Positions 15,617-28,714 of a stretch of DNA of 64,000 nt are shown here, piece by piece; positions within the stretch are counted from its first letter, which is position 1, and each line of letters begins with the position of its first letter. The position numbers and the translations under genes were made by a program. A model generated the notes under the pieces. That model was not told the DNA's origin and made no database searches. It saw only the letters and a program-made list of their open reading frames with translations. The stretch lies in contig JAJYHX010000003.1 in the NCBI GenBank assembly GCA_021784575.1, positions 186,001 to 250,000 on the forward strand, read 5' to 3'. The stretch is from Nitrospirota bacterium (GTDB lineage: Bacteria > Nitrospirota > JACRHJ01).

Positions 15617-16315
15617 TCAGCGGGAGACGCGGAGCATCTTATCCCCGCCGGGGATGAATGTGAACGGGACTTTCTGCCGCCCGGCGCTGAAACACTCGGC
15701 CTTGAGCGCGGAGATAAGCCTGTCCAGGGCGGGATATTCCTTCCCGTCAAGCCCCATCAACGGGTAAATCCGCGCCTCCGGGGCCACGCGCATGAACTCG
15801 CGGATGCAGTCCATGTGGAAGGAGAAATCGAGCCTGTTGCCGTAAAGAAAGAGGAAGTGGCTTGAGAGGACAAGCTTGAACGAATCGTCCGCGAACGGGA
15901 GCTTGGGAAGCCTTGCCTGGACATAACGGCCCGCCTTCAGCCCTTCGGAAAAGTCTCCGGAGAAATTCACGAGCGCCTTCATCCGCTCCGTGGCGTGAAG
16001 CTCCGGCGTCTTGTAGAAACTCCAGTCGTAGCTGTCCCGAACCTTTTTAAACTGCTCCAGGGCGTACGCCGTGTCCTTGCAGGCCTTGTCTATAAGCCTG
16101 TCTGCGGGGGTTCCGTACTGGATGTCCGCGGCGGCAACATCGTATCCCATGAGCGCGGCCTCAGCCGTGAACGACGACGCCCCCGCCGGGCAGTCGAGAA
16201 TGTCTCCCGACTGCAATACCTTGCGGTTCAGGTTGAATAATTTCGCGTATTCCCTGAATGTGCGGCCTATGAAGGCGATACGGTTCAAGTCCATTTTCCC
16301 GGTCACGGCTCTCAT
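15617..16315 (-). CDS. SAM-dependent methyltransferase-like protein in the hopanoid locus
   Basis: 232 residues. A class I methyltransferase fold is suggested by ILDCPAGASSFTAEAALMGYDVAAADIQY (glycine-poor motif I followed by an acidic residue at the end of strand 2) and by LPFADDSFKLVLSSHFLF, which matches the motif IV region. The start is fixed by an ATGA overlap with the upstream hpnG gene, so it is translated from the hopanoid operon. Many anaerobes carry such proteins without known substrate; methylation of a hopanoid side chain is possible but is only inferred from position. Confidence 0.7.
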   Translation of the reverse strand: MRAVTGKMDLNRIAFIGRTFREYAKLFNLNRKVLQSGDILDCPAGASSFTAEAALMGYDVAAADIQYGTPADRLIDKACKDTAYALEQFKKVRDSYDWSFYKTPELHATERMKALVNFSGDFSEGLKAGRYVQARLPKLPFADDSFKLVLSSHFLFLYGNRLDFSFHMDCIREFMRVAPEARIYPLMGLDGKEYPALDRLISALKAECFSAGRQKVPFTFIPGGDKMLRVSR

Positions 16316-17097
16316 AGCGCCCCCATCATCGATTCGACGGACTCTCCCAGCCTCTCACAGGCAAGGCGGGAATTCCTGCCGAGCCTCAGCAGGGCGGGAA
16401 TACGGGCGGGATGCGCCAATAGATAAAACATAAGCCGCGCCAACCGCATTTTCCCATCGTTCATAAAGAGGTTGAAATCCACGGGCAGGTCTTCTTCCAG
16501 CGTGTCGGATATGGCGCGGATGGAGATGAACGGGATTCCCGACTCGGCGCAGGCGCGTGCCGCGCCGCCGGATTCCATGTCGAGAGCAACGGCTCCGGTC
16601 GCATCCGCCAGTTTCTTTTTTTCGGCTGAGGTTGTTATAGTCCTGGAGACCGAGGCGAACCTCCCGGCGCGGCATTCGATTTTGGCGAGGGTGGCACTAA
16701 GGCCGGGATTGCAGGGAAAAGATATATGGTTTCCGTTAGAAACCCGAAGCTCTTGGATTCCCGATGGAGCCTGCCCCGGTATGCTTAAAGCCGGGGCGGA
16801 AATAACGGCATAGGAGGTTATCTCAGTCGCGGCGATGATGTCTCCAGCCACAAGCCCCAGCGCAAGGGACGCGGAAAGGCCGACGGAGACATACGCCCGC
16901 GCATCGGGATAAAGCGCGAGTATTTCTTTCGCTTTCCGGTATGCGCTGTCCTCTCCCATCCCTGACACGGCAAGGATTGCGGAAACGCCGCCTGTCTCCC
17001 CTTCAAAACAGCAGCCTTTGGCCCGGCGGAACCTGCCGCGCCTCATTATTCCGTTGATTTCGAGAGGAAAGGCCCCGGCGAGGATTATGGGAGGCAT
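16312..17097 (-). CDS. hpnG: Hopanoid-associated phosphorylase (HpnG-like nucleosidase/phosphorylase)
   Basis: 261 residues of the purine nucleoside phosphorylase/MTA-SAH nucleosidase superfamily; the C-terminal half has the typical VALDMESGGAARACAESGIPFISIRAISD block containing the substrate-binding Met-Glu and the catalytic Asp. HpnG removes adenine from adenosylhopane to give ribosylhopane in bacteriohopanepolyol synthesis. The start at 17097 has GGAG upstream. It lies 15 bases after shc, and hpnH, which makes adenosylhopane, is in the same locus, so the assignment rests on both sequence and context. Confidence 0.85.
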   Translation of the reverse strand: MPPIILAGAFPLEINGIMRRGRFRRAKGCCFEGETGGVSAILAVSGMGEDSAYRKAKEILALYPDARAYVSVGLSASLALGLVAGDIIAATEITSYAVISAPALSIPGQAPSGIQELRVSNGNHISFPCNPGLSATLAKIECRAGRFASVSRTITTSAEKKKLADATGAVALDMESGGAARACAESGIPFISIRAISDTLEEDLPVDFNLFMNDGKMRLARLMFYLLAHPARIPALLRLGRNSRLACERLGESVESMMGAL

Positions 17098-17112
17098 AAG
17101 GCTCCAAATTTT

Positions 17113-19227
17113 TTATTCCCCGCAACCCCCGCAGAATATCTTACTATACATCCCCTTCTGGCGGTTTTCCAGCCGGATTTCATCCGTCCTCGTGCGGCCC
17201 CGCGTAATGACGGAGCGGTACATCGACAGCGCCCAGAGCGGGAAATATTTGCTGTACATGTGGTATCGGAGATAAAAAACGCGCGGGAAACCCGTGCCGG
17301 TATAGTCGTCTTCGTCCCAATACCCGTAGCGGTTCTGCGTATTCAGTAGGTATTCCACTCCGCGCCTGACTTCCGGAGACGACGCCTCGCCCGCGGATAT
17401 AAGCCCTATAAGCGCCCAGGCTGTCTGTGAGGAGGTGGAGTTGCAGTCCGGGGCGGAGAGCGGGTCGCTATAGGTGTCGCATGACTCGCCCCAGCCGCCG
17501 TCTTCGTGCTGGCGGCTTTTAAGCCACCTCACGGCCTTCCTGACATATTCCCTGTCCATGTCCTCGCCTATCAGTCTGAGCCCCGCGAGCACCGACCACG
17601 TGCCGTAGATATAGTTCACTCCCCAGCGCCCGTACCAGGAGCCGTCCTGCTCCTGCTCTCTCAGCAGGAAGTCGTGCGCCGCCTTCGCGGGGCCGTAGGA
17701 GAGGTCGAGCCCCATCAGGCCCATTATCTCCAGGGCGCGGCCCGTAAGGTCGGACGTGGACGGGTCGAGAAGCGCGCCGTGGTCGGCGAACGGGATATGG
17801 TTGAATATGAGCTTGTTGTTGTCCTTGTCGAACGCGCCCCAGCCGCCGTCGCTGCACTGCATCTTCACAAGCCACTCGAACGCGGCGGTGATGCGCCGAA
17901 GCTTCTTCTCCTCCTCGAACGTCTTTACCTTGAGGAGCGCGAGCAGAACCATCGATGTATCGTCGTTGTCGGGATAGAACTCGTTCTCGAACTGGAAATA
18001 CCAGCCGCCCGGGTCTGCGTCCGGGACCTTGACTTTCCAGTCTCCCCTCGTGGAGGTCTGCTTTCTGAAGAGCCAGTCCGCCGCATGGCGGAAACTGCCG
18101 TGGCTGGCGGGAAGGCCTGCCTCGAACAGCGCGTTTATGGCGATGGGCGTATCCCATACCGGAGAGACGCACGGCTGGAGGCACATGGAGTCGTCTCCAA
18201 GCTCCACTTCGAGGTCTTCTATCGACTTGAACGCCTGCTCAAGCAGAGGGTCTCCGTCCGGATGTCCCATAAGTTTCAGCGCGACGACGGAATTGGCCAT
18301 GGCCGGATATATCCCGCCAAGGCCTCCTTCACCCTTCATGCGCTCGACAGTCCATTTATAGGCCTCCGTAAGACCCATAGTCCGGAGAGCCTTGTTGGCG
18401 TGTCTCTCGTAGAACCTGAAGAAGCTGTCCAGGGTAATGAATGCGTTCTTCCATGTGAAGAGCTTCTTTTCTTTCTTAAACCTCTGGTCGCGGTTCCGGC
18501 AGTTATCCCGGTCGTCCCTGTCGGCAAAGAGCTCCGCGATTCCCATCTCGGGCGGGAGCGCCATTACGGGTTTCTTGTCGAATATGATAAGCAGAGGGAC
18601 AAGCACCGTCCTTGACCAGTATGATATTTCGTATATGTTGAAATAGAACCAGGAGGGCAGGAGCATTATCTCGACAGGCATACAGGGGACGCCGTCCCAC
18701 GGATACTGGCCGAACATGGCAAGCGTTATCTTCGTGAAGACGTTCGCCCGGATAAGCCCGCCGTTCTTAAGGACGTTCTCACGCGCGCGCGCCATGAAAG
18801 GCTCTTCGGCGGATACGCCCGCGAGCTTGAGAGCGAAATATGCCTTGATTGTGGCCGAAATATCGGAAGACCCGCCGCGGTAGATATACCAGCCGCCGTC
18901 TTCCATCTGGATGGATTTAATATACTCGACAAGGCGTTCTTCCCTTGCCTCGTCCACGCGGCCAAGGAAACGGCGAAGCATGAGGTATTCGGCGGGTATG
19001 GTGGCGTCCGCCTCGAGCTGGTCAACCCAGAACCCTTCCACCGGGTCCTGCACGCCCAGCAGGTATCTCATGGCCTTGTCCACCGTATTATCCAGCCCGG
19101 CGGAAATACCGCCCGCCCTGCCGACAGCCCGGCCTCCCTGCGTCAGACTTTCGGTTAACCGGTCTTCGGCGGAGTTGCCAGGCTCCCCGTCGTCATACGG
19201 CCGCCTTAGTCGGCTGAACTCGTCCAT
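17113..19227 (-). CDS. shc: Squalene-hopene cyclase
   Basis: 704 residues from the ATG at 19227, preferred over an upstream TTG because AAGGGAGGGGC stands directly before it. The catalytic DxDD motif is present as DNDDT at about residues 419-423, and several QW-type repeats are visible (GGWGAF, GSWYGRW, GGWGESCDTYSD, YGYWDEDDYTG near the end). The enzyme cyclises squalene to hopene at the inner membrane, the first committed step in hopanoid synthesis. Slightly longer than the ~630-residue Alicyclobacillus enzyme because of an N-terminal extension of low complexity. Transcribed from its own promoter, followed by hpnG. Confidence 0.97.
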   Translation of the reverse strand: MDEFSRLRRPYDDGEPGNSAEDRLTESLTQGGRAVGRAGGISAGLDNTVDKAMRYLLGVQDPVEGFWVDQLEADATIPAEYLMLRRFLGRVDEAREERLVEYIKSIQMEDGGWYIYRGGSSDISATIKAYFALKLAGVSAEEPFMARARENVLKNGGLIRANVFTKITLAMFGQYPWDGVPCMPVEIMLLPSWFYFNIYEISYWSRTVLVPLLIIFDKKPVMALPPEMGIAELFADRDDRDNCRNRDQRFKKEKKLFTWKNAFITLDSFFRFYERHANKALRTMGLTEAYKWTVERMKGEGGLGGIYPAMANSVVALKLMGHPDGDPLLEQAFKSIEDLEVELGDDSMCLQPCVSPVWDTPIAINALFEAGLPASHGSFRHAADWLFRKQTSTRGDWKVKVPDADPGGWYFQFENEFYPDNDDTSMVLLALLKVKTFEEEKKLRRITAAFEWLVKMQCSDGGWGAFDKDNNKLIFNHIPFADHGALLDPSTSDLTGRALEIMGLMGLDLSYGPAKAAHDFLLREQEQDGSWYGRWGVNYIYGTWSVLAGLRLIGEDMDREYVRKAVRWLKSRQHEDGGWGESCDTYSDPLSAPDCNSTSSQTAWALIGLISAGEASSPEVRRGVEYLLNTQNRYGYWDEDDYTGTGFPRVFYLRYHMYSKYFPLWALSMYRSVITRGRTRTDEIRLENRQKGMYSKIFCGGCGE

Positions 19228-19299
19228 GCCCCTCCCTTCACGATAATTCTTCAAATTTTATAAGCAGTTGAACTGTCCGTAAAGCTGGACGACGTTCCA

Positions 19300-19327
19300 A
19301 TTATACTTCTTCAAAAGCTTATGTCAA
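19300..19327 (-). promoter_or_regulatory. Consensus sigma-70 promoter for shc
   Basis: On the minus strand TTGACA (19327-19322) and TATAAT (19305-19300) are both perfect, with a 16-base spacer. The transcript would start near 19293, leaving a leader of about 65 bases before the shc start. It lies in the gap after hpnH, so shc, hpnG and the methyltransferase can be made apart from the upstream genes. Confidence 0.8.
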
Positions 19328-19368
19328 GTAAAGTCGCAAAAATAAAAAAAACTTAACAATTCCCTTAA

Positions 19369-20337
19369 TCAACTAAAATTCCATTTTATAAGCTCCAGGA
19401 TGTCTTTCAAATTCCTGCCGGCCTCCTCGACCGCCGTCGGTTCAACGCCGCAGTGCATCATGCAGTTTTTGCACCTCGGGTCTTTCCTCTCCACGAACCT
19501 GTCCCACTCCGTGCTCTCGATAAGCTCCCGGAAGGTCTTGTAGTGCCTGTCGGTAATGAGATAGCACGGGCCCTTCCAGCCCTGCGGGTTTACGGTAACG
19601 CTGCCCCAGGGGGTGCATTTGAGGTCGCGCTCCCCTGCCAGGAAATGCATGTAGAGCGGGGTGTTTACGAAACGGTATTTCTCCGCCAATTTGAATACTT
19701 CCCTGAACTTCTTCCTGCTTTCCCCGCGCTCAAGGAAAATGTCTTTTTCGACCGCCTCGTACGAGAAGCCGGGCGTAACGAGGAAGCCGTCCACCCCGAG
19801 CGCGGTAAGCCTATTAAACAGCTCCTCGATTTCCTTTATATCCGTTTCCTTGTAGAGCGTGGTATTTACAATCAGCCTGTGGCCCCTGGCCTTTGCCTCG
19901 GAGATAGCCTTTGTCTGGACATCGAATATGCCCTTGCGGCCTCTTGTAAATTCCTGCGTCTTCTCAAGCCCGTCGATGGAGATTGTGAACGTCAGGTATG
20001 GAGACGGAACAAATTTATCGAGCGAGGCGGACAGCTTGATGGCGTTGGTGCAGAACTGTATATGCCTTTTCATGGCGATGAGCTCGGATACAAGCTCTCC
20101 AACCTGCGGGTACATGAGCGGCTCGCCTCCGCAGACGGATATAACGGGCGCGCCGCATTCCCTTGCCGCGCCTATGCACTCGTCGAGCGTCATCATGTCC
20201 TGGAGCGTATCCTTGTATTCCCGTATCCTGCCGCAGCCGATGCAGGAGAGGTTGCACAGGTGAAGCGGCTCCAGCATCAGGACGAGGGGGAACTTTTTAA
20301 TGCCTTTTATCTTGTTCTTGACGATATACTTCGTCAT
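19369..20337 (-). CDS. hpnH: Adenosyl-hopene transferase HpnH (radical SAM)
   Basis: 322 residues from the ATG at 20337; the open frame continues to 20454 but only through a palindromic repeat. The radical SAM cysteines are Cys28, Cys32 and Cys35 (CNLSCIGC), preceded by the family-typical PLVLMLEPLHLC. GGEPLMYP follows. A C-terminal set CKNCMMHCG resembles an extra Cys motif. HpnH adds 5'-deoxyadenosyl to diploptene, giving adenosylhopane, which HpnG then processes. It lies 128 bases after the B12-type radical SAM gene and just before shc. The ribosome binding site is weak. Confidence 0.92.
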   Translation of the reverse strand: MTKYIVKNKIKGIKKFPLVLMLEPLHLCNLSCIGCGRIREYKDTLQDMMTLDECIGAARECGAPVISVCGGEPLMYPQVGELVSELIAMKRHIQFCTNAIKLSASLDKFVPSPYLTFTISIDGLEKTQEFTRGRKGIFDVQTKAISEAKARGHRLIVNTTLYKETDIKEIEELFNRLTALGVDGFLVTPGFSYEAVEKDIFLERGESRKKFREVFKLAEKYRFVNTPLYMHFLAGERDLKCTPWGSVTVNPQGWKGPCYLITDRHYKTFRELIESTEWDRFVERKDPRCKNCMMHCGVEPTAVEEAGRNLKDILELIKWNFS

Positions 20338-20405
20338 GGAAACGTTCAATTGCACCGGGTGACGCAATTCAAAACCTCCAACCACCGTGTTCGTAAAGAT
20401 AAAAA

Positions 20406-20463
20406 CCGTGTTCGTGTTCGTGGCGAAATTTAAGAATTCAGATTCCACGAACACGAAACACGG
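20406..20463. repeat. Palindromic repeat, CCGTGTTCGTG type
   Basis: CCGTGTTCGTGTTCGTGG at 20406-20423 and CCACGAACACGAAACACGG at 20445-20463 are inverted complements except for one extra base, with an AT-rich centre. Partial direct copies of the arm occur just upstream (20385-20393) and in the gap at 22437-22445; a related pair of arms flanks the repeat at 57863-57980. Confidence 0.7.
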
Positions 20464-20465
20464 CC

Positions 20466-21767
20466 TTAGTAGTAATCCACCGGGTCTTTCTTATGCCTTA
20501 CCGCCCACCAGAATATCAGGTTGCTCGGAAGCCCCTGCCACATGTACGCGTTCGGAGGGGCCAGGAACCTCCTGAAGATTTTCGGTATAGAATAGAACTC
20601 CTCGAAGCAGTTCCATACGCCGTCCTCAACCTGCTTCGGAGTCATGTTCCTGGGCGTAAACAGGCATTCCATGCCAAGATACCTGTCCGCCATCGGGTTG
20701 ATGACGCGCCCTTCCTCTTCAAGCTTTTTCCTCATGGCGGTCCCGGTGCGCGGAGTTACCGTATTGAAGAACGCCATCGGGGCCTTTACCTGTCTTAAGA
20801 AGTCCATCGTCTCGGCGAATATTTCCGGGGTATCTTCGTCGAGCCCGAAGAGGAAATTCAGGGAGTAGAATATGCCCCGCTTCTCAAGCGCGCGGAGCAT
20901 CGCGCTATATTCCTTTACGGTATTCTGCTTTTTGTTGACGGAGCCCAGGCTTTTCTGCGAGACGGATTCGATGCCTATGTTTACATGGTAGACGCCGGCC
21001 TTGATGGCGAGATCGAGTATCTCCGCGTCCCTTGAGGTATTAATCGTCCAGAGGCAGCTCCATTTGACGCCAAGCGGCGCCATCGCCCTGAAAAGCTCGC
21101 GGGCGTATTCGCGGTTGCCCGTGATGTTGTCGTCCACCACCTGTATCTTCCTTGTCGGTATCCGCTTTATATCCTCGATTACCTCCGGGACCGGCCTGTG
21201 CCGGTACGTCCCGCCGTAGAACACGGGCACTTCGCAGAAGCTGCACTTGAACGGACAGCCGCGCGTCGTCTGGAGCGGCAGGAACGGCACGAAATATTTC
21301 CTGAGGTCGAGCAGTTCCCATCGCGGGAGCGGGAGGTTCTTCAGGTCATGGAACCTGTCCGCCTTGTAGCGCCGCTTCATCCTGCCGTCTTTGAAGTCCG
21401 TAAGGAGCTGCTCCCAGACATATTCGGCTTCACCCTCGACAACGGCGTCGCAATGCTCCAGACATTCCTCCGGCAGGAGCGTCGCATGGAAACCGCCCAT
21501 AACGACCGGCACGCCTTTCTTCCTGAACCTGTCCGCAATATGATACGCGCGCGACGAACTCGCTATGGCAACCGAGAGGGCGACAAGGTCGTATCCGCCG
21601 TCGTAGTTTATCTCGGAAAGCCGGTCGTCGAGGAGCTCTATATCCACCCACTTTGGCGTCAATCCCGCCATGTAAGGCAGCGCAAGACCCATTATCCATC
21701 GGCGCGGGGTCTTGTATGGAGTGCCGTCCTTGAAGACGGTCGTCGGTTGTATCATAAGCAGCTTCAT
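20466..21767 (-). CDS. B12-binding-type radical SAM enzyme in the hopanoid locus
   Basis: 433 residues. The first ~150 form a Rossmann-like cobalamin-binding-type domain; the classical DxHxxG is not obvious, so cobalamin binding is uncertain. The radical SAM cluster cysteines are Cys171, Cys175 and Cys178 (CPFKCSFC). The last ~100 residues (PRNMTP, FYSIPKIFRR) resemble the C-terminal extension of many B12-type radical SAM methylases. It does not match the N-termini I know for HpnP (C-2 methylase), HpnR (C-3 methylase) or HpnJ. It lies 6 bases after the MlaC/HpnM gene and upstream of hpnH, so a hopanoid-modifying or lipid-modifying role is inferred. Confidence 0.8.
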   Translation of the reverse strand: MKLLMIQPTTVFKDGTPYKTPRRWIMGLALPYMAGLTPKWVDIELLDDRLSEINYDGGYDLVALSVAIASSSRAYHIADRFRKKGVPVVMGGFHATLLPEECLEHCDAVVEGEAEYVWEQLLTDFKDGRMKRRYKADRFHDLKNLPLPRWELLDLRKYFVPFLPLQTTRGCPFKCSFCEVPVFYGGTYRHRPVPEVIEDIKRIPTRKIQVVDDNITGNREYARELFRAMAPLGVKWSCLWTINTSRDAEILDLAIKAGVYHVNIGIESVSQKSLGSVNKKQNTVKEYSAMLRALEKRGIFYSLNFLFGLDEDTPEIFAETMDFLRQVKAPMAFFNTVTPRTGTAMRKKLEEEGRVINPMADRYLGMECLFTPRNMTPKQVEDGVWNCFEEFYSIPKIFRRFLAPPNAYMWQGLPSNLIFWWAVRHKKDPVDYY

Positions 21768-21773
21768 AGGCGG

Positions 21774-22406
21774 CTACTTTGCCCTTTTCCCGCCGCCGGG
21801 AGCGGCCATCTCTTCCGATTCCTGCTTCGTCTTCATCTTCTTCACCAGGTTCGCGTACGACGAGGAACGGATTATCTTGTTAAACTGGACGCGGTAGTTA
21901 TTGACCAGCGAGACGTGCTCGATTACGATATCGTATACCCACCACTGTCCGTTCTTGTTGATAAGCCTGTAATTTACAGGTATCTTCTCGTGGCGCTTGG
22001 TTATGATGTCGGAGTCCACAGTAGCGTAGCCGTCGGTAATTTTTTCTCCGGTGTAGTTAATCTTTTCGTTGGTGTATCCCTCTATCCGGTTTATATATGA
22101 GCGCTCCAGGAGGTCCGAGAAAAGCTTTACAAAGTCGTTCTTCTCCTGAGGAGTCCTCTGTCGCCAGAAGATTGCAAGCGAGCGCCTGGCCATCTCCCTG
22201 TAATCGAATACGGTGCTCGCCAGCGCCATTATCTTCTTCCTTCTCGCCATTTCGTGGGCAGGGCCTTTAAGCTTCGGGTTCTTGAGCACTGCGATTACCT
22301 TGTCTGCGGCGGTCTTCACCCTTTCCGTCGGCGCCCCGGCAAATGCGCCCTGGGCCATGGCCATAATCAAAAACACCGGCAGAACTGCATAAATCAGTTT
22401 TTTCAT
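21774..22406 (-). CDS. MlaC/HpnM-family periplasmic lipid-binding protein
   Basis: 210 residues from the ATG at 22406 with AAGGAG in front. An N-terminal signal peptide (KKLIYAVLPVFLIMAMAQGAFA) indicates export to the periplasm. The body matches the MlaC/Ttg2D family, with TVFDYREMARRSLAIFWRQ and the C-terminal VNYRLINKNGQWWVYDIVIEHVSLVNNYRVQF. MlaC ferries lipids between the outer membrane and the MlaFED complex; the hopanoid-associated version is called HpnM. Both names fit here because mlaFED lie upstream and hopanoid genes downstream. Confidence 0.9.
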   Translation of the reverse strand: MKKLIYAVLPVFLIMAMAQGAFAGAPTERVKTAADKVIAVLKNPKLKGPAHEMARRKKIMALASTVFDYREMARRSLAIFWRQRTPQEKNDFVKLFSDLLERSYINRIEGYTNEKINYTGEKITDGYATVDSDIITKRHEKIPVNYRLINKNGQWWVYDIVIEHVSLVNNYRVQFNKIIRSSSYANLVKKMKTKQESEEMAAPGGGKRAK

Positions 22407-22563
22407 GTTATCTCCTTTCTTGAAAAAGCCGTATTTCGTGTTCGTAAAAAGACAACTGTCATTCCTGGCGACTATATACGCGCTCGTCATTCCCGAATGA
22501 TTTATCGGAAATCCAGAGATTTTAAAAAGTCACTGGCCCCCCGTTCTCACGGAGGTGACAGAC

Positions 22564-24042
22564 TTATTCCCCTCCCGCCTGCTTCTCCTGCTTCTCCTGC
22601 TTCTCCTGCTTCTCCATCTCCTCCACTGCCTTCATCGGGTTTTTGTCTACTGTATAGGGTATTTCGTATGCGTCCTCCCCGGTGGCATGGTCGAGGTTCG
22701 CTATCGCCATGCGCTGGTTGAATACGGCGCGGAAGTAATCGGCGCGAATCTTGGCATATGCCTTTACGGAGTCCGCTATGTCCCTGGCGCCGCCTACGCC
22801 GAGGTCGAAATTGGAAAGGGATGCGACCACCCACTGTTTCGCCTTCGTATACGAGTCGTCAAGGGATTTAATCTGGCTATTGGCCTCGACCAGTTGGAGG
22901 TATGCCTGCTTCACCTGGAACGGCACGCCGCCCATTGCGTAAAGCTGTTTCATCTTAAGTTTCATGTATTCGGCCCTGGCCTCGGAGACCTTGCTCTTTC
23001 GTATGCCAAAGTCCATCCCCCACTTGAAGCCCACCACCGCGCCGCCGTATGCGTGGTTGAACTCGTCCGTGATGTACGGGTTGTTCAAGTGGTCCCGGTT
23101 CGTCGCCCCGGCGAGGGAATACAACCCGGCTATGAAGACCTGCGGGAAATAGTCCGCATACTTCGCTTTTATAAGATATTTTTTGGCGGCCAGCCCCTCC
23201 TTGAGTTGCAGGAACTCCAGCCGGTCTTTCATGGCCGCTTTTTTATAGGAATCGAAATCCCGGAGGTCTACCGTGGCGGGCACGAGGTATTTGTCCTTTA
23301 TGTCTATCTTCTTGCCCATGTTATTGGTCAACAACTGAAGCCCGTAGTATGCCTCGTTTATGCCCTCGTCCGCCATCGCCATATATTTCTTCAGTTCGCC
23401 CTGGTATGTCTGGAGCTTGTAGAGGTCCACTTCGTCCACGTTCGGCGCGCCCGCGTTGAGCTGGCGCTGAACCTTGTCCGTAGCCTTGTCGAGCTGGTCG
23501 CTTATGTCTTCCAGCAGCCCCTTGAGCTCCCTGCCCAGAAGCAGGCCCCAGTATGCCTCTTTAACCTGAAGAGCGACATCGGTGGCCTTCAGGCGCGCAC
23601 CGGCCTCATACGCCTTGACGCCGTGTCTTGCGGCCTCGCGGTAAGAGTCTATCTTCCCGAATGTGTAGATCGGCTGTATGAGGACAATGTCGGCGCGCCC
23701 GAATACGCCGTCGTATGACGGCCTGTTTATGTCCGTGGTGCTTTCGGGGTTTCCGTTGCTGCCGTTTAAGAGTCTCGCCCTTGGGGACAGGCTGCCGTAT
23801 GCTGTTAAATCTATGGTCGGGAATCTCGACGCGTCGGCCTGCTTCTGTTTGTCTCTGTAGACTTCGGCCTGAAATTCGGCTCCCTTTATCTCGGCGTTTA
23901 CCTTGATTGCCTGTTTTATGGCGTCGTTGAGGGAAAGTATTCTGACGTTATCCTGCGGAAATGCGGCGGGAACCGACGCGAACAACACAAGCGCGGCTGC
24001 CGCCGCGCCGAACAGAACAAGAAAAGATTTCCTCCCCTCCAT
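22564..24042 (-). CDS. TolC-family outer membrane channel protein
   Basis: 492 residues, start preceded by GGGAGGG. An N-terminal signal peptide (about residues 1-29) is followed by two long alpha-helical OEP halves with heptad-rich, coiled-coil stretches, as in TolC-type trimers that cross the periplasm. It sits between mlaD and the MlaC/HpnM gene, which is unusual: a TolC-type partner would let an MCE complex reach the outer membrane. The C-terminus ends in a Glu-Lys-Gln tandem repeat coded by 9-base DNA repeats at 22582-22617. Confidence 0.9.
   Translation of the reverse strand: MEGRKSFLVLFGAAAAALVLFASVPAAFPQDNVRILSLNDAIKQAIKVNAEIKGAEFQAEVYRDKQKQADASRFPTIDLTAYGSLSPRARLLNGSNGNPESTTDINRPSYDGVFGRADIVLIQPIYTFGKIDSYREAARHGVKAYEAGARLKATDVALQVKEAYWGLLLGRELKGLLEDISDQLDKATDKVQRQLNAGAPNVDEVDLYKLQTYQGELKKYMAMADEGINEAYYGLQLLTNNMGKKIDIKDKYLVPATVDLRDFDSYKKAAMKDRLEFLQLKEGLAAKKYLIKAKYADYFPQVFIAGLYSLAGATNRDHLNNPYITDEFNHAYGGAVVGFKWGMDFGIRKSKVSEARAEYMKLKMKQLYAMGGVPFQVKQAYLQLVEANSQIKSLDDSYTKAKQWVVASLSNFDLGVGGARDIADSVKAYAKIRADYFRAVFNQRMAIANLDHATGEDAYEIPYTVDKNPMKAVEEMEKQEKQEKQEKQAGGE
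22582..22617. repeat. 9-base tandem repeat in the TolC-family gene
   Basis: CTTCTCCTG is repeated three times in register (22582-22608) and followed by an imperfect fourth unit. In the minus-strand reading frame it codes Gln-Glu-Lys units at the extreme C-terminus. Slippage would change the number of tail units without a frameshift. Confidence 0.85.
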
Positions 24043-24056
24043 TTGCCCTCCCTTCA

Positions 24057-24152
24057 GTTACTTTCTTTTCAGGTTAAAAGAAAGTAACCCAAGAAAAGCC
24101 GGACAGTCCAGCTTTCTTTCGGTTACTTTTCTTTCACGAAAGAAAAGTAACC
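24057..24152. repeat. Two large palindromes between mlaD and the TolC gene
   Basis: GTTACTTTCTTTT (24057-24069) pairs with AAAAGAAAGTAAC (24076-24088), a perfect 13-base arm. GGTTACTTTTCTTTC (24121-24135) pairs with GAAAGAAAAGTAACC (24138-24152), a perfect 15-base arm with a 2-base loop, ending on the mlaD stop codon. A third, shorter member is at 15510-15533. Such hairpins could stabilise the upstream mRNA or lower expression of the downstream gene. Confidence 0.85.
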
Positions 24153-24592
24153 TATACTTTTCCGAATATGTAGTTTGCTATCAGACTCTCGAAATCTATC
24201 GCCGATTCGGTATCCTGGATTGTGGAACCGGCCACGAGCATCTTGCTGGAACCGCCGGGAGAGATGGAGACGTATTTCTCTCCGATCAGCCCCTTGGTCT
24301 TTATGGAGACCACGGAGTCGTCCGAGATCTTTACCCCCGGCTTCATCCTCATGCGGACAAGCGCCTGGTAGTCCTTGAGGGATATGTTCGTCACCCTGCC
24401 CACCTCCACCCCGGCTATCTCGACCTCCGCGCCCGTCTTAAGCCCGCCGATGTTGGAAAACTCGGCCTGGATGTCGTATCCCGTGTTGCCTATGACCTCG
24501 AGCTTGCCAAGCTTTATGGACAAGAAGGCCAGCGCCGCCAGGCCCACGAGAACAAAAACTCCGACAAGTATCTCAACACTGTCCTTTTTCAT
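24152..24592 (-). CDS. mlaD: MCE-domain lipid transport protein MlaD
   Basis: 146 residues. A single N-terminal membrane segment (about residues 8-25, VGVFVLVGLAALAFLSIKL) is followed by one MCE domain (GYDIQAEFSNIGGLKTGAEVEIAGVEVGRV reads as the family core). MlaD forms a hexameric ring in the periplasm through which lipids pass to or from MlaE. ATGA overlap with mlaF. Slightly shorter than E. coli MlaD (183) because it lacks the C-terminal tail. Confidence 0.93.
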   Translation of the reverse strand: MKKDSVEILVGVFVLVGLAALAFLSIKLGKLEVIGNTGYDIQAEFSNIGGLKTGAEVEIAGVEVGRVTNISLKDYQALVRMRMKPGVKISDDSVVSIKTKGLIGEKYVSISPGGSSKMLVAGSTIQDTESAIDFESLIANYIFGKV

Positions 24593-25341
24593 GCAATCCC
24601 TCCCGCCGAAACCTCTTCGGACAACCCGCGCACGAAACGCCGCACCTCCGGCACGCGCGAGTTTCTTATCTCGTCCGGCGTGCCTGTCTCTATCATGACA
24701 CCGCCGGAGAGCATCCCTATCCTGTCCGCCACTCCGAATATCTCCGGTATCTCGTGGCTTACGATAACCGCCGTAAAGCCGTACGTTTTCTTTCCCCAGA
24801 GGATGAGCCTGTGAACTGAATCCACGAGTATCGGGTCGAGCCCGGTCGTAGGTTCGTCGAAGAGCACGACCTCCGGCCTCATCACCAGGACGCGCGCAAA
24901 TGCCGCGCGTTTCTTCATCCCGCCGGATACCTCTTCGGGATATTTATGGCCCATCCCGGAGAGCCCCACTTTTTCAAGCTCCTCCTCGACACGGGCGTTT
25001 ATCTCTTTTTTCGAGAGCTTCGTCTTCTCCCTGAGCGGGAAGGCGATGTTCTCGTAAATAGTCATGGAATCGAAAAGCGCGCCTCCCTGGAAGAGATAGC
25101 CGGCGCGGTCGCGCATTTTATAAAGCGCCTGGCCCCTGAGGCCGCGGATGGACTTCCCGTCTATCAGAATATCGCCCGAATCGGCCTCCAGAAGACGCAT
25201 TATGACCTTCAGAAGGACGCTTTTACCCTGTCCGCTGCCGCCGATTACGGCGAAAATCTCGCCCGTCTCAACGGTAAGGGACACGCCTTTTAATACCGCC
25301 TGTCCGTCGAAGGACTTATGTATGTTTTTTACTTCAATCAT
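24589..25341 (-). CDS. mlaF: MlaF-type ABC transporter ATPase
   Basis: 250 residues from the ATG at 25341, where the conserved IEVKNIHKSFDG begins; the upstream extension passes through an intergenic repeat. Walker A is GGSGQGKS, the signature is VSGGMKKRAAFAR, and Walker B is LFDEPTTGLDP. It energises the MlaFEDB-type complex that moves lipids between the membranes. Its stop overlaps the mlaD start. Confidence 0.93.
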   Translation of the reverse strand: MIEVKNIHKSFDGQAVLKGVSLTVETGEIFAVIGGSGQGKSVLLKVIMRLLEADSGDILIDGKSIRGLRGQALYKMRDRAGYLFQGGALFDSMTIYENIAFPLREKTKLSKKEINARVEEELEKVGLSGMGHKYPEEVSGGMKKRAAFARVLVMRPEVVLFDEPTTGLDPILVDSVHRLILWGKKTYGFTAVIVSHEIPEIFGVADRIGMLSGGVMIETGTPDEIRNSRVPEVRRFVRGLSEEVSAGGIA

Positions 25342-25365
25342 CAATAAATCACCCAGGTTACACCC

Positions 25366-25436
25366 CCCTCTCCCGGAGGGCGAGGGGGATTTATTCAATG
25401 TCACTCTCCTCACGGGAGAGGGACCACGGGGTGAGG
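25366..25436. repeat. GC-rich inverted repeats between mlaF and mlaE
   Basis: The gap carries CCCCCTC/GAGGGGG and CTCTCC/GGGAGAG arms around TCCCGGAGGG, a CCCTCTCC/GGAGAGGG-type intergenic repeat common in many genomes. Its role here is unknown. Confidence 0.5.
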
Positions 25437-25440
25437 GAAA

Positions 25441-26226
25441 CTAAAAGTTCAGCATAACCGAGTTCAGGAAATAATCCCACACCAAAACGAGCGTCGAGGC
25501 CATCACGACCGAGGTCGTCGTGGCCCGGCTGACGCCTTCCGCCCCGTGGCCGGTGTTATAGCCTTTGTAACATGATACCCATATCATTATAACGCCGAAA
25601 CACAGGCTCTTTATCATGCCGTCCCTTATGTCCTTGTAGCCCACGAAGTCCTTTATCCCGGAGAAATATGTCCCGGCCGAAAGCCCCAGGAGCTTTACGC
25701 CTATGAGATACCCCCCGTAGATTGCGACCACGTTGAATATCGCGCCGAGAAGAGGGAACGACACGAGAGCCGCAAGCATATTCGGCACCATCAGGTACCG
25801 AAATGGCGACAGGGACATGGATTCGAGGGCGTCCACCTGCTCGGTAATGCGCATTATCCCTATCTCCGCCGACAGCGCGGAACCGGCCCGGCCTATTATC
25901 ATAAGCGCCGAAAGCACCGGCCCAAGCTCCCTTATGACGGAGAGCGCAATCGCCGGGCCAAGATATGCCTCCGCGCCGAATTTCTGGAGCGTATAGTATA
26001 TCTGGAGCCCCAGGATCATGCCCGTAAACGCCCCCGTCAGGACGATGAGCGCAGTGCTCCTGGCCCCCATGAAACCTATCTGGCGGACTACCCGGTTTAC
26101 CTTAAGCGGCGGGGTAAAAGTCCAGTACAGCGTCCTGCCCAGGAAAAGGAACATGTCTCCAGTCTCCTGGAGAACGTCCAAGACCGCCGTTCCGATGCTC
26201 CTCGGTATCGCCAGTATGTAATCCAT
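25441..26226 (-). CDS. mlaE: MlaE-type ABC transporter permease
   Basis: 261 residues from the ATG at 26226. Five to six hydrophobic segments are evident, with the family motifs FMGARSTALIVLTGAFTG, REL-GPVLSALMIIGRAGSA and the Glu of EIGIMRITEQVDALESM. This is the inner membrane permease of the MCE/Mla system. It is the first gene of the co-directional mlaE-mlaF-mlaD-TolC-MlaC-hopanoid run and is divergent from lptF. Confidence 0.94.
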   Translation of the reverse strand: MDYILAIPRSIGTAVLDVLQETGDMFLFLGRTLYWTFTPPLKVNRVVRQIGFMGARSTALIVLTGAFTGMILGLQIYYTLQKFGAEAYLGPAIALSVIRELGPVLSALMIIGRAGSALSAEIGIMRITEQVDALESMSLSPFRYLMVPNMLAALVSFPLLGAIFNVVAIYGGYLIGVKLLGLSAGTYFSGIKDFVGYKDIRDGMIKSLCFGVIMIWVSCYKGYNTGHGAEGVSRATTTSVVMASTLVLVWDYFLNSVMLNF

Positions 26227-26242
26227 TATGCTCAAGCCTTTT

Positions 26243-26271
26243 ATAATAATATCACGCGCGCTTCTTGGCAA
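26243..26271 (-). promoter_or_regulatory. Candidate promoter for the mlaE operon
   Basis: On the minus strand TTGCCA (26271-26266), a 17-base spacer and TATTAT (26248-26243). The start would be near 26236, leaving only about 10 bases before the mlaE ATG, so it is plausible but tight. Confidence 0.45.
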
Positions 26272-26438: not shown

Positions 26439-27626
26439 ATGCTTGTGAAGATAATAGACCGCTATATAATAAAAGAGCTTATCCCGCCTTTTTTCCTGGG
26501 CCTGCTCCTGTTTACCTTCGTGCTCCTGATAAACAGGATATTCAAGCTGACCGACCTGATAGTTGCAAAAGGCGTGCCCATGACGGAAGTCCTGCGGCTT
26601 GTCTCATATATCATGCCTTCCTTCCTGACCCTGACTATCCCCATGGCGCTTCTCCTCGCAACCCTGGTGGCGTTCGGGCGGCTTTCCACGGACAGCGAAA
26701 TAGTCGCATTGAAGGCCACGGGGTTTTCGATCTACCGGCTCATGGTCCCGGTATTTGCCATGAGCCTCGTAACCGCCGCCGTGACGGCTTATTTCTCGCT
26801 CTACCTCGGGCCGCACAAGGCAAGGAATTTCGAGAAGGAGGTCTTCACCATCGCCAGGACTCACGCCTTCGCCGACATAGAAGAGGGGGTGTTCAACGAC
26901 TCCTTCAAGAACCTGGTAATATACGCGAACAAGGTCCCGTCGCCGAACGTTATGGACGGGGTTTTCATCTCCGACGAGAGAGACCCGAACGACCCTTACG
27001 TGATAATAGCGCGCCAGGGAATCCTCAATATGGACATGTCTACCGGCTACGCCTACCTTGTGCTGAAAGACGGCAGCATCCACAGAAAAGAGAACAAGTC
27101 CGGCTCATACCAGGAGATTAAATTCGACAACAACACGCTCTCCATAAACCTCTACCAGAAATTCCTCGGGGGTTCCGACGCGGATAAAAGGGACAAGCGG
27201 GAGATGTCGCTTGGAGAGCTTCGAGATGTCGCGCGCCGGATGGCGGAGGCGGGGAAACATAGCTACGATCTGATGACAGAGTATTACAACCGGTTCACAA
27301 TACCCCTGGCCTGCATCATCTTCGGCATTGTAGGCCCGCCGCTCGGCATGTTCTCGCGGCGCTCCGGAAAATCGTCCGGCCTGACAGTCGCGCTCGTTGT
27401 CTTCACGCTTTACTACCTGCTGATGAAGGGCGGTGAAGACATGGCCTCCGCGGGCAGGTTCCCGCCGCTCCTCGCCGCGCTGCTGCCGAACCTGGCGGTA
27501 GGCGCCCTGGGGGTTTATCTTGTCGCGTCCGCCGGAACCGAGCGCAGCATAGGATTGCAGACCGTGAAAAACCTCTACGGCCGGCTTGCGAACAGGGACG
27601 GGGCGTCCAGGAGGAGAGACAATTGA
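26439..27626 (+). CDS. lptF: LPS export permease LptF
   Basis: 395 residues of the YjgP/YjgQ family. Three hydrophobic segments in the N-terminal part and three near the C-terminus flank a large periplasmic beta-jellyroll domain (from about residue 120 to 290). The N-terminus IDRYIIKELIPPFFLG is typical. LptF, LptG and the LptB ATPase lift LPS from the inner membrane to the LptC/LptA bridge. The ATG has no ribosome binding site; GTG at 26445 is an alternative. The stop overlaps lptG by 4 bases. Confidence 0.93.
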   Translation: MLVKIIDRYIIKELIPPFFLGLLLFTFVLLINRIFKLTDLIVAKGVPMTEVLRLVSYIMPSFLTLTIPMALLLATLVAFGRLSTDSEIVALKATGFSIYRLMVPVFAMSLVTAAVTAYFSLYLGPHKARNFEKEVFTIARTHAFADIEEGVFNDSFKNLVIYANKVPSPNVMDGVFISDERDPNDPYVIIARQGILNMDMSTGYAYLVLKDGSIHRKENKSGSYQEIKFDNNTLSINLYQKFLGGSDADKRDKREMSLGELRDVARRMAEAGKHSYDLMTEYYNRFTIPLACIIFGIVGPPLGMFSRRSGKSSGLTVALVVFTLYYLLMKGGEDMASAGRFPPLLAALLPNLAVGALGVYLVASAGTERSIGLQTVKNLYGRLANRDGASRRRDN

Positions 27627-28714
27627 AGATACTGCACCGCTACATCCTGAAGGAGTTTGCCCGGTTCTTCGCCATCACGCTGTCGGCCTTCCTGGTGCTC
27701 TTTCTTATAGGCGATTTCATCGAAAAGGTGGACGACTTTGTCCGGCACAAGGCCGCGGCGCTTGATGTAATACGCTATATGCTCTGCGAGCTTCCCAACA
27801 CGGCGTTTCTGGTCATGCCTCTGGCCGTGCTTCTTTCCACGCTCCTCGCCCTTGGGCTTTTATCGAAAAACGGCGAGATAATCGCCATGAAATCAGGCGG
27901 CCTGCCGCTATACAGGATAGTCGCACCCATATTCTTTACCGCGGTGTTCCTTTCCGGGCTTCTATTCTGGGCGAACGAGACGGTTATCCCATACTGCAAT
28001 TCCAGGGCGGGATACATAAAGCAGGTGAAGATAGACAAAAAACCCGTCCGACCCGCGCTGAAACACAACAAGTTCTGGTTCCGCGGCCCCGGCAACGAGG
28101 TAATAAATATCGGCCTTGTGGATTTCAAATCGGGCCTTCCCGTCTGCTACGGCGTAACGTTCTACAGGCTGGATAGAAATTTTGACCTGTATCAGCGCGT
28201 GGACTCGAAGATGATGGCCTGGGAGTCCGGCGGCGGATGGGTGCTCCTGAACGGGATTACATACGATTTCAAGCGCGGCGGCGGCATAAGCATGAACCGC
28301 TTCGACCGGCTTCCGGTGAATCTTCCCGAGAAACCCGAGGATTTCAAGCGCATGGAAAGGGTCTCGGAGGAGATGGACTTCTCCGAGCTGCAAAGCTACA
28401 TAGCGAGGCTTCGCAGGGAAGGGTATAACCCGGTAAAGTATCTCGTGGACTTGTACGGCAAGGTGTCTTTCACTCTGGCCAACCTGATAATGGTCATAGT
28501 CGCGGTGCCTTTTTCGCTCAAGACCTCCCGGAGCGGCGGCATGGCCCTCGGCGTGGCCATATGCGTAATCCTCGCCATAAGCTACTGGTTCCTGTATTCG
28601 TTTTCCATCTCTCTCGGACATGCGGGGCGTTTCCCCCCGCTCTTCGCCGCGTGGTTCGCCAACGCCCTCTTCTGCGCCTCCGGCGTTTATCTGTATCTAC
28701 AGGCGGACAGATAA
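27623..28714 (+). CDS. lptG: LPS export permease LptG
   Basis: 363 residues, same fold as LptF: N-terminal ILHRYILKEFARFF, three membrane segments, periplasmic domain, three more segments ending in GRFPPLFAAWFANALF. The start is TTG at 27623, overlapping the lptF stop and preceded by GGAGGAGAG. Forms the heterodimeric LptFG core with the preceding gene. No lptB or lptA lies in the window. It ends 4 bases from the convergent modC stop. Confidence 0.93.
   Translation: MKILHRYILKEFARFFAITLSAFLVLFLIGDFIEKVDDFVRHKAAALDVIRYMLCELPNTAFLVMPLAVLLSTLLALGLLSKNGEIIAMKSGGLPLYRIVAPIFFTAVFLSGLLFWANETVIPYCNSRAGYIKQVKIDKKPVRPALKHNKFWFRGPGNEVINIGLVDFKSGLPVCYGVTFYRLDRNFDLYQRVDSKMMAWESGGGWVLLNGITYDFKRGGGISMNRFDRLPVNLPEKPEDFKRMERVSEEMDFSELQSYIARLRREGYNPVKYLVDLYGKVSFTLANLIMVIVAVPFSLKTSRSGGMALGVAICVILAISYWFLYSFSISLGHAGRFPPLFAAWFANALFCASGVYLYLQADR

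Follow-up and report, generated by a model that had tools for sequence, protein, structure and literature searches.

A TolC-family protein as probable MlaA stand-in in an Mla-type gene cassette of Nitrospirota, in some genomes beside hopanoid genes

A cluster of ten genes in a Nitrospirota genome encodes what is probably a complete Mla-type lipid-transport system, mlaEFD-tolC-mlaC, in which an unrelated TolC-family protein has taken the place of the outer-membrane lipoprotein MlaA; in the family of this genome (f1) the cargo probably includes hopanoids, the bacterial counterparts of cholesterol. The evidence consists of gene content and order, the TolC fold of the protein, its mutual exclusion with MlaA, the dependence of MlaC on the presence of one or the other, the finding of MlaA in the same operon slot in family f20 and a repeated linkage to the squalene-hopene cyclase gene, shc. 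The cluster lies in a stretch of 64,000 nucleotides, here called the window.

Gene content of the cluster

The ten genes are all on the minus strand and run from 26271 to 15617 in the order mlaE, mlaF, mlaD, tolC, mlaC, a B12 radical SAM gene, hpnH, shc, hpnG and a methyltransferase-like gene. An earlier note on this DNA had placed them there, and their identity was confirmed when the cluster proteins were scored against Pfam and NCBIfam profiles with the model cut-offs. The features are as follows:

15617..16315, minus strand, methyltransferase-like protein (PF08241, 20.8 bits, borderline against a cut-off of 21.2)
16312..17097, minus strand, hpnG-like nucleoside phosphorylase (PF01048, 66 bits; best model HpnG, 122 bits but under its cut-off of 187)
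17113..19254, minus strand, shc, squalene-hopene cyclase (TIGR01507, 767 bits, cut-off 431)
19300..19327, minus strand, predicted sigma-70-like promoter TTGACA-16-TATAAT, upstream of shc, between hpnH and shc
19369..20454, minus strand, hpnH, adenosylhopene transferase (TIGR03470, 415 bits, cut-off 225)
20466..21767, minus strand, B12-binding radical SAM protein (PF02310 and PF04055)
21774..22490, minus strand, mlaC (HpnM-like), putative periplasmic lipid shuttle (PF05494, 160 bits)
22564..24042, minus strand, TolC-family outer-membrane protein, proposed MlaA stand-in (OEP, PF02321, 108 bits)
24121..24152, no strand assigned, near-perfect 14-bp inverted repeat between mlaD and tolC
24152..24592, minus strand, mlaD, short, with a single MCE domain (TIGR04430, 163.5 bits, which passes the cut-off of 135)
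24589..25413, minus strand, mlaF, ATPase (ABC_tran; best NCBIfam model MlaF, 201 bits)
25441..26271, minus strand, mlaE, MlaE-type permease of an MCE ABC transporter (PF02405, 256 bits)
26439..28714, plus strand, lptF and lptG, divergent from mlaE; context, outside the system

The probable start of mlaE is the ATG at 26226 and that of mlaC lies near 22412. Nearest to the MlaC protein among the NCBIfam models was HpnM, at 90 bits well under its cut-off of 160. The mlaD product has 146 aa and carries neither a C-terminal extension nor a barrel, and none of the ten cluster proteins matched the MlaB STAS subunit in Pfam. Other members of the genus and family retain orthologous clusters (L033-L036), and mlaE is syntenic in L033-L040; the genes that we take to be lptF and lptG, named from sequence and general knowledge, stay beside it in the genus (synteny in L033, L034 and L160). 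Among the relatives read, the B12 radical SAM gene occurs only in the genus of the window and is missing in L035; HpnR, HpnJ and BchE were rejected as identities of its product, each model scoring far under its cut-off. The methyltransferase-like protein is not hopanoid-specific because a relative of it (226 bits) is present in the shc-less genome of L089.

The genes do run in one direction, as had been noted earlier, but they may not form a single operon. The predicted promoter between hpnH and shc is a perfect match and is invariant across four genomes of the genus, and because of this conserved promoter-like sequence the cluster may consist of two transcription units, shc, hpnG and the methyltransferase gene possibly having their own in the genus of the window. 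The inverted repeat between mlaD and tolC was also found in one other member of the genus (G002).

The host assembly (G000; Nitrospirota, 2.1 Mb, 97% complete) contains one squalene-hopene cyclase, one MlaC, two further TolC-family genes and, elsewhere, a second MCE locus with a long MlaD (358 aa). No match to MlaA (PF04333) was found in it, and the absence of mlaA reported for the cluster in the earlier note holds for the assembly as a whole. In the controls, the MlaA model found the proteins of E. coli and Caulobacter together with those of 67 other Nitrospirota.

The TolC clade and its place in the mla cassette

The TolC orthologues form a sharp group with 36-93% identity, below which values fall to about 24%, and constitute a distinct orthologous clade separate from the two other TolC-family genes of the host. 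The AlphaFold2 model of the protein is a confident TolC fold (pLDDT 90.7) that matched TolC in Foldseek with E 1e-19, probability 1.00 and TM 0.70; the best matches were all TolC, OprM or CusC. Both periplasmic tips (residues 197-203 and 414-418) are conserved within the clade, unlike those of nine adaptor-type TolC paralogues. Also conserved is an extracellular loop (residues 314-329), by its position in the model the outer loop of the second beta-hairpin, which holds most of the motif GATNRDxxxNPYIxD; this motif is degenerate in distant clade members. No adaptor (membrane fusion protein) gene was found among the cluster proteins or between the cassette genes of the relatives.

When 84,980 species genomes were scanned with TolC motifs and nothing else, 80 loci emerged, and because the search used only these motifs the synteny across phyla is unbiased by neighbouring genes. 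The order mlaE-mlaF-mlaD-tolC-mlaC was seen in every TolC orthologue with sufficient flanking sequence, and the same five genes recur in the cassette-bearing clades of Nitrospirota, Rokubacteria, other Methylomirabilota and Geobacter and in a Desulfuromonadaceae genome. In Geobacter locus L084 other genes intervene between tolC and mlaC, Nitrospirota locus L093 holds a lone, divergent TolC, and three loci (L096, L100 and L103) have tolC-mlaC pairs with no adjoining MCE gene. Members of the clade also adjoin HpnN-like RND genes (L091, L099 and L106). Judged from this conservation, which extends over genus and family for the cluster and over three phyla for its mla-tolC-mlaC part, the gene set is not due to chance and the TolC-family protein belongs to the mla cassette, in agreement with the part that the earlier note had given it.

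Exchange of TolC and MlaA

The search for MlaA covered the cassette genomes as well as genomes of the same families that lack the TolC. In this Nitrospirota sample, 36 genomes carry the cassette TolC and 67 carry MlaA, none carries both and 17 carry neither. MlaA was also absent from 22 more cassette genomes reached via their loci, some of which may duplicate assemblies of the sample. Genome G304 (apparently the same assembly as G097), which has a non-cassette TolC relative together with MlaA, was set apart from the exclusion count. Both types occur inside single families, with TolC:MlaA counts of 19:4 in f11, 2:10 in f23, 3:10 in f26 and 1:7 in f20, and in these families the two fall in different genera. 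All 51 genomes tested that carry TolC or MlaA also have MlaC, as against 1 of the 17 with neither, the exception being G174, where mlaE-F-D-mlaC is found. Five f20 genomes show the order mlaE-mlaF-mlaD-mlaA-mlaC (L156 is truncated at the mlaE end), so that MlaA occupies exactly the slot of TolC.

Based on a tree of MlaE, MlaF, MlaD and MlaC, the partner switches at least eight times. Four independent contrasts are well supported; in these MlaA was as expected or unchanged and never the opposite, a result that is not significant alone. Outside Nitrospirota, TolC and MlaA coexist in 10 of the 14 genomes from Methylomirabilota and the Geobacter group, which may possess additional Mla systems. The best reading of the gene distribution is that the TolC-family protein would be a non-homologous, exchangeable outer-membrane partner of MlaC and MlaEFD.

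Linkage with hopanoid genes

Among 396 Nitrospirota genomes, shc was found in 191, HpnN in 35 (all with shc) and the cassette TolC in 45. TolC and shc occur together only in five genomes of f1, in all five on the same contig, and the overlap outside f1 is 0 of 390. Since the other 40 of the 45 TolC genomes lack shc, complete ones included (G017 and G051), hopanoids cannot be the general cargo of the cassette. HpnN (TIGR03480) was absent across f1, the best score in the host genome being 24.6 bits. This absence weighs little because 156 of the 191 shc-bearing Nitrospirota are devoid of HpnN, and on the same count the idea that it proves a takeover by the cassette was ruled out.

As long as the link was defined by TolC alone, shc appeared to avoid the cassette outside f1. 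This was overturned by a search with MlaE, which showed the link to be very common in genomes without TolC. In the Nitrospira family, shc and mlaE lie on the same strand, about 905 bp apart, in 92 of the 93 genomes with both positions listed, and the two loci read fully have the order shc-hpnG-mlaE-F-D-mlaC followed by an Omp85-type barrel. This family, the largest shc-MCE group, has no TolC, and its MlaA lies elsewhere in the genome (7 of 7 tested). Linkage of MCE genes and shc was also present in family f39 (3/3), in two f18 genomes and in f1. The order is shc-mlaEFD-tolC-mlaC in Rokubacteria, and in Geobacter shc and hpnN precede the cassette. The neighbourhood comparison that the earlier note had proposed thus finds the association of MCE genes and MlaC with shc recurring in these groups.

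In other Nitrospirota the shc locus carries HpnN instead; of nine genomes checked, all have mlaC within 1.4 kb and seven have mlaA within 2.5 kb. Further combinations were tolC-HpnN-like RND-mlaC-shc-hpnA-x-hpnH in Desulfobacterales, tolC-HpnN-like-mlaC in Syntrophorhabdales and, in Methylomirabilota locus L075, mlaEFD-tolC-mlaC with an HpnN-like gene, a second mlaC and, one gene further, shc. MlaC is constant throughout, whereas either MlaEFD or HpnN supplies the engine and either MlaA or TolC the outer-membrane end; all four pairings were seen.

Concerning the history of the linkage, the TolC tree groups f1 with Rokubacteria (91, not starred), the shc tree places it with other Nitrospirota and Methylomirabilis, away from Rokubacteria, and the MlaEFD-C tree leaves its position open. 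Parsimony gives at least four changes in shc linkage. Because the three trees disagree on f1, the number of linkage origins is uncertain, and one origin or a joint transfer of the hopanoid-linked cassettes was rejected on this disagreement. Gene neighbourhood makes hopanoids a plausible cargo in the family of the window.

Relation to known systems

The cluster resembles the proteobacterial Mla system (MlaFEDB, MlaC, MlaA-OmpC/F) in that MlaE, MlaF, a short MlaD and MlaC clearly belong to their families and are encoded in one cluster; in E. coli that system carries phospholipid in the retrograde direction to maintain the asymmetry of the outer membrane. It differs in the genome-wide absence of MlaA, in the TolC-family protein encoded between mlaD and mlaC and in that no mlaB was seen in the cluster. 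TolC proteins of tripartite pumps and type I secretion share the OEP domain and the fold, but here no adaptor or pump gene is present, the tips are divergent and the GATNRD..NPYI.D loop is conserved. According to the accessible text of a study on Veillonella parvula (PMC10665443), mlaEFD is followed by a tolC homologue in all Negativicutes, with a long MlaD and with neither MlaC nor MlaA. This mlaEFD-tolC-tamB arrangement is like the present one in having tolC directly after mlaEFD and no MlaA; yet there the long MlaD has a beta-barrel and tamB comes next, whereas here MlaD is short and mlaC comes next. The same text gives TolC no Mla role and poses as an open question whether absent components are "replaced by non-homologous proteins".

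That hopanoids can be transported by way of HpnN is already established (Doughty et al. 2011, cited in PMC6394551). HpnN and HpnM, the latter of the MlaC family, resemble our system in the presence of an MlaC-family gene in a hopanoid locus, but here an MCE ABC transporter serves as the engine and HpnN is absent (best score about 25 bits). The BstABC sterol transport of Methylococcus (PMC10942540) and AmeABCD (PMC6394551) likewise combine a lipid-type transporter with periplasmic and outer-membrane parts beside the metabolism genes of the lipid; they differ in their RND engine (HpnN-like or HAE3) and in their unrelated periplasmic and outer-membrane proteins. A literature search, preprints and most subscription journals aside, retrieved no report of a link between MlaEFD and shc or between TolC and the absence of MlaA. 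The adjacency of mlaEFD and tolC is already known from Negativicutes, and for the exchange with MlaA and the linkage with shc no literature precedent was found. The TolC member, which the earlier note had considered the unusual part, makes more sense as a replacement for MlaA, and its position after mlaEFD is not new.

Proposed mechanism and alternative explanations

In known Mla systems, soluble MlaC carries lipid between the MlaD ring and MlaA. In the system described here, MlaE, MlaF and MlaD would load or unload lipid at the inner membrane in an ATP-driven manner, MlaC would ferry it across the periplasm and dock at the periplasmic end of the TolC-type trimer, and the trimer would hand the lipid on to the outer membrane or receive it from there, in delivery or in retrieval. 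We infer physical contact between MlaC and TolC, passage of lipid through or along TolC and hopanoids as cargo. A hand-over between MlaC and TolC, in either direction, is suggested by the TolC/MlaA exclusion, the shared slot and the MlaC dependence, and in f1 the cargo would probably be hopanoids and phospholipids because shc and hpnH adjoin the cassette and HpnN is absent. A point against lipid passage is that TolC in known structures is a water-filled tunnel, and we know of no established case of lipid passing through a TolC-type tunnel.

The bridging of TolC onto the MCE ring that the earlier note had put forward would form a continuous conduit like that of a tripartite pump, with MlaC as accessory. 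Tripartite pumps and type I secretion provide the precedent, tolC comes directly after mlaD and the TolC tips are family-specific. Still, we regard it as decidedly unlikely: even with one MCE ring added, a TolC tube of about 100 A falls short of the width of a usual periplasm, and a shuttle is favoured over a direct tube because MlaD is short and devoid of an extension, mlaC is always kept, an adaptor gene was not found and tolC-mlaC pairs exist with no adjoining MCE gene. Very improbable, in our judgement, is an ordinary drug or type I efflux TolC that serves other pumps and is co-transcribed with the mla genes by accident. The protein has the same fold as TolC, which is a shared component in E. 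coli, but the host genome has two other TolC-family genes and the cassette protein belongs to a separate clade that has retained its place between mlaD and mlaC in different phyla and that shows the exclusion with MlaA.

Two further alternatives touch the cargo and the exclusion itself. A dedicated hopanoid exporter, in which MlaEFD, MlaC and TolC would have evolved together for bringing hopanoids to the outer membrane, would agree with the position of shc, which adjoins the cassette in every f1 locus read as well as in Rokubacteria, Geobacter and a further Methylomirabilota genome, and with the lack of HpnN in f1. We consider it quite improbable, as the 40 cassette-bearing Nitrospirota genomes that lack the cyclase speak against its strong form, TolC and shc show no overlap outside f1 and the largest shc-MCE group, Nitrospira, has no TolC; the word "dedicated" in the earlier note does not survive this comparison. 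The TolC/MlaA exclusion could also reflect lineage history or another envelope trait, such as the Lol lipoprotein pathway, in place of a replacement. The presence of both types is strongly clade-structured, only four well-supported independent contrasts are available and PMC10665443 ties the absence of MlaA to that of Lol. This explanation deserves some weight but is unlikely given that single families contain both types, that MlaA sits in the same operon slot in f20 and that MlaC is absent where both TolC and MlaA are absent (G174 excepted).

The exchange of MlaA for the TolC-family protein, which we prefer, can be extended into a wider and more tentative proposal: MlaC-type carriers would be a constant hub with exchangeable ends (MlaEFD or HpnN on one side, MlaA or a TolC-clade trimer on the other), and in the family of the window MlaEFD-MlaC-TolC would have replaced HpnN in hopanoid transport, the lipid being carried by TolC. 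We hold this to be possible, with doubt somewhat outweighing belief.

Biological significance

For one large group of bacteria, the TolC/MlaA exclusion and the MlaC dependence give a concrete, testable answer to how an MCE route could reach the outer membrane without MlaA. If this is true, TolC proteins would be lipid-handling partners, beyond their role as efflux ducts. The linkage of MlaEFD-MlaC with shc in nearly all Nitrospira-family genomes sampled, and of HpnN with MlaC and MlaA elsewhere, points to a candidate second hopanoid route beside HpnN, in bacteria that are important to nitrification and to the fossil record of hopanes. The TolC-type Mla machine encoded beside hopanoid genes may represent a route for hopanoids across the cell envelope in some bacteria.

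Elements of the window cluster

20466-21767, gene for a B12 radical SAM protein
19327-19254, region preceding shc, with a perfect sigma-70-like promoter and a leader that is strongly conserved
24121-24152, spacer from mlaD to tolC, holding a near-perfect 14-bp inverted repeat

Among the relatives read, the B12 radical SAM protein was confined to the window's genus, and it is possibly a lipid-modifying enzyme. Model scores gave no support for its identification as HpnR or HpnJ. The promoter and leader preceding shc were conserved in four genomes of the genus. Half-sites of the inverted repeat also occur in a second member of the genus (G002), and no further copy of the repeat was found within the window.

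Other arrangements of the mla and tolC genes

The host genome carries a second MCE locus (L052, contig C8 near 82.7 kb) composed of mlaE, mlaF and a gene for a long MlaD of 358 aa, which is perhaps of the barrel-ended transenvelope type. Clusters without MCE genes still pair tolC with mlaC (loci L102 and L098, both at 10-13 kb, and L096 at 1-3 kb): in Bdellovibrionales the two genes flank a CDP-alcohol phosphatidyltransferase gene, and in Latescibacterota and Caldithrix they adjoin a gene for a DUF3047 protein, that of Caldithrix giving a weak MlaC match as well. In two Bdellovibrionales loci (L117 and L118) an ABC ATPase gene precedes mlaC and tolC in place of mlaEFD; in L117 an M23 peptidase gene and an unnamed ORF resembling a membrane protein likewise lie ahead of them.

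Outer-membrane partners in Nitrospirota

Only one of the tested Nitrospirota genomes (G174, family f11; locus L158) had mlaEFD-mlaC with neither MlaA nor the cassette TolC, the TolC-family protein encoded between mlaD and mlaC. In two Nitrospira-family genomes (L140 and L168), an Omp85-type beta-barrel gene lies downstream of shc-hpnG-mlaE-F-D-mlaC, and a DUF3187 gene also follows in L140. An Omp85 gene comes after shc-hpnG in L143 too, and this barrel may be a further outer-membrane partner. In the HpnN loci of Nitrospirota, as seen in L133, L134 and L136 and in genome coordinates, the immediate neighbours of hpnN are mlaC and, in most cases, mlaA, an adjacency which suggests that HpnN functions together with MlaC and MlaA.
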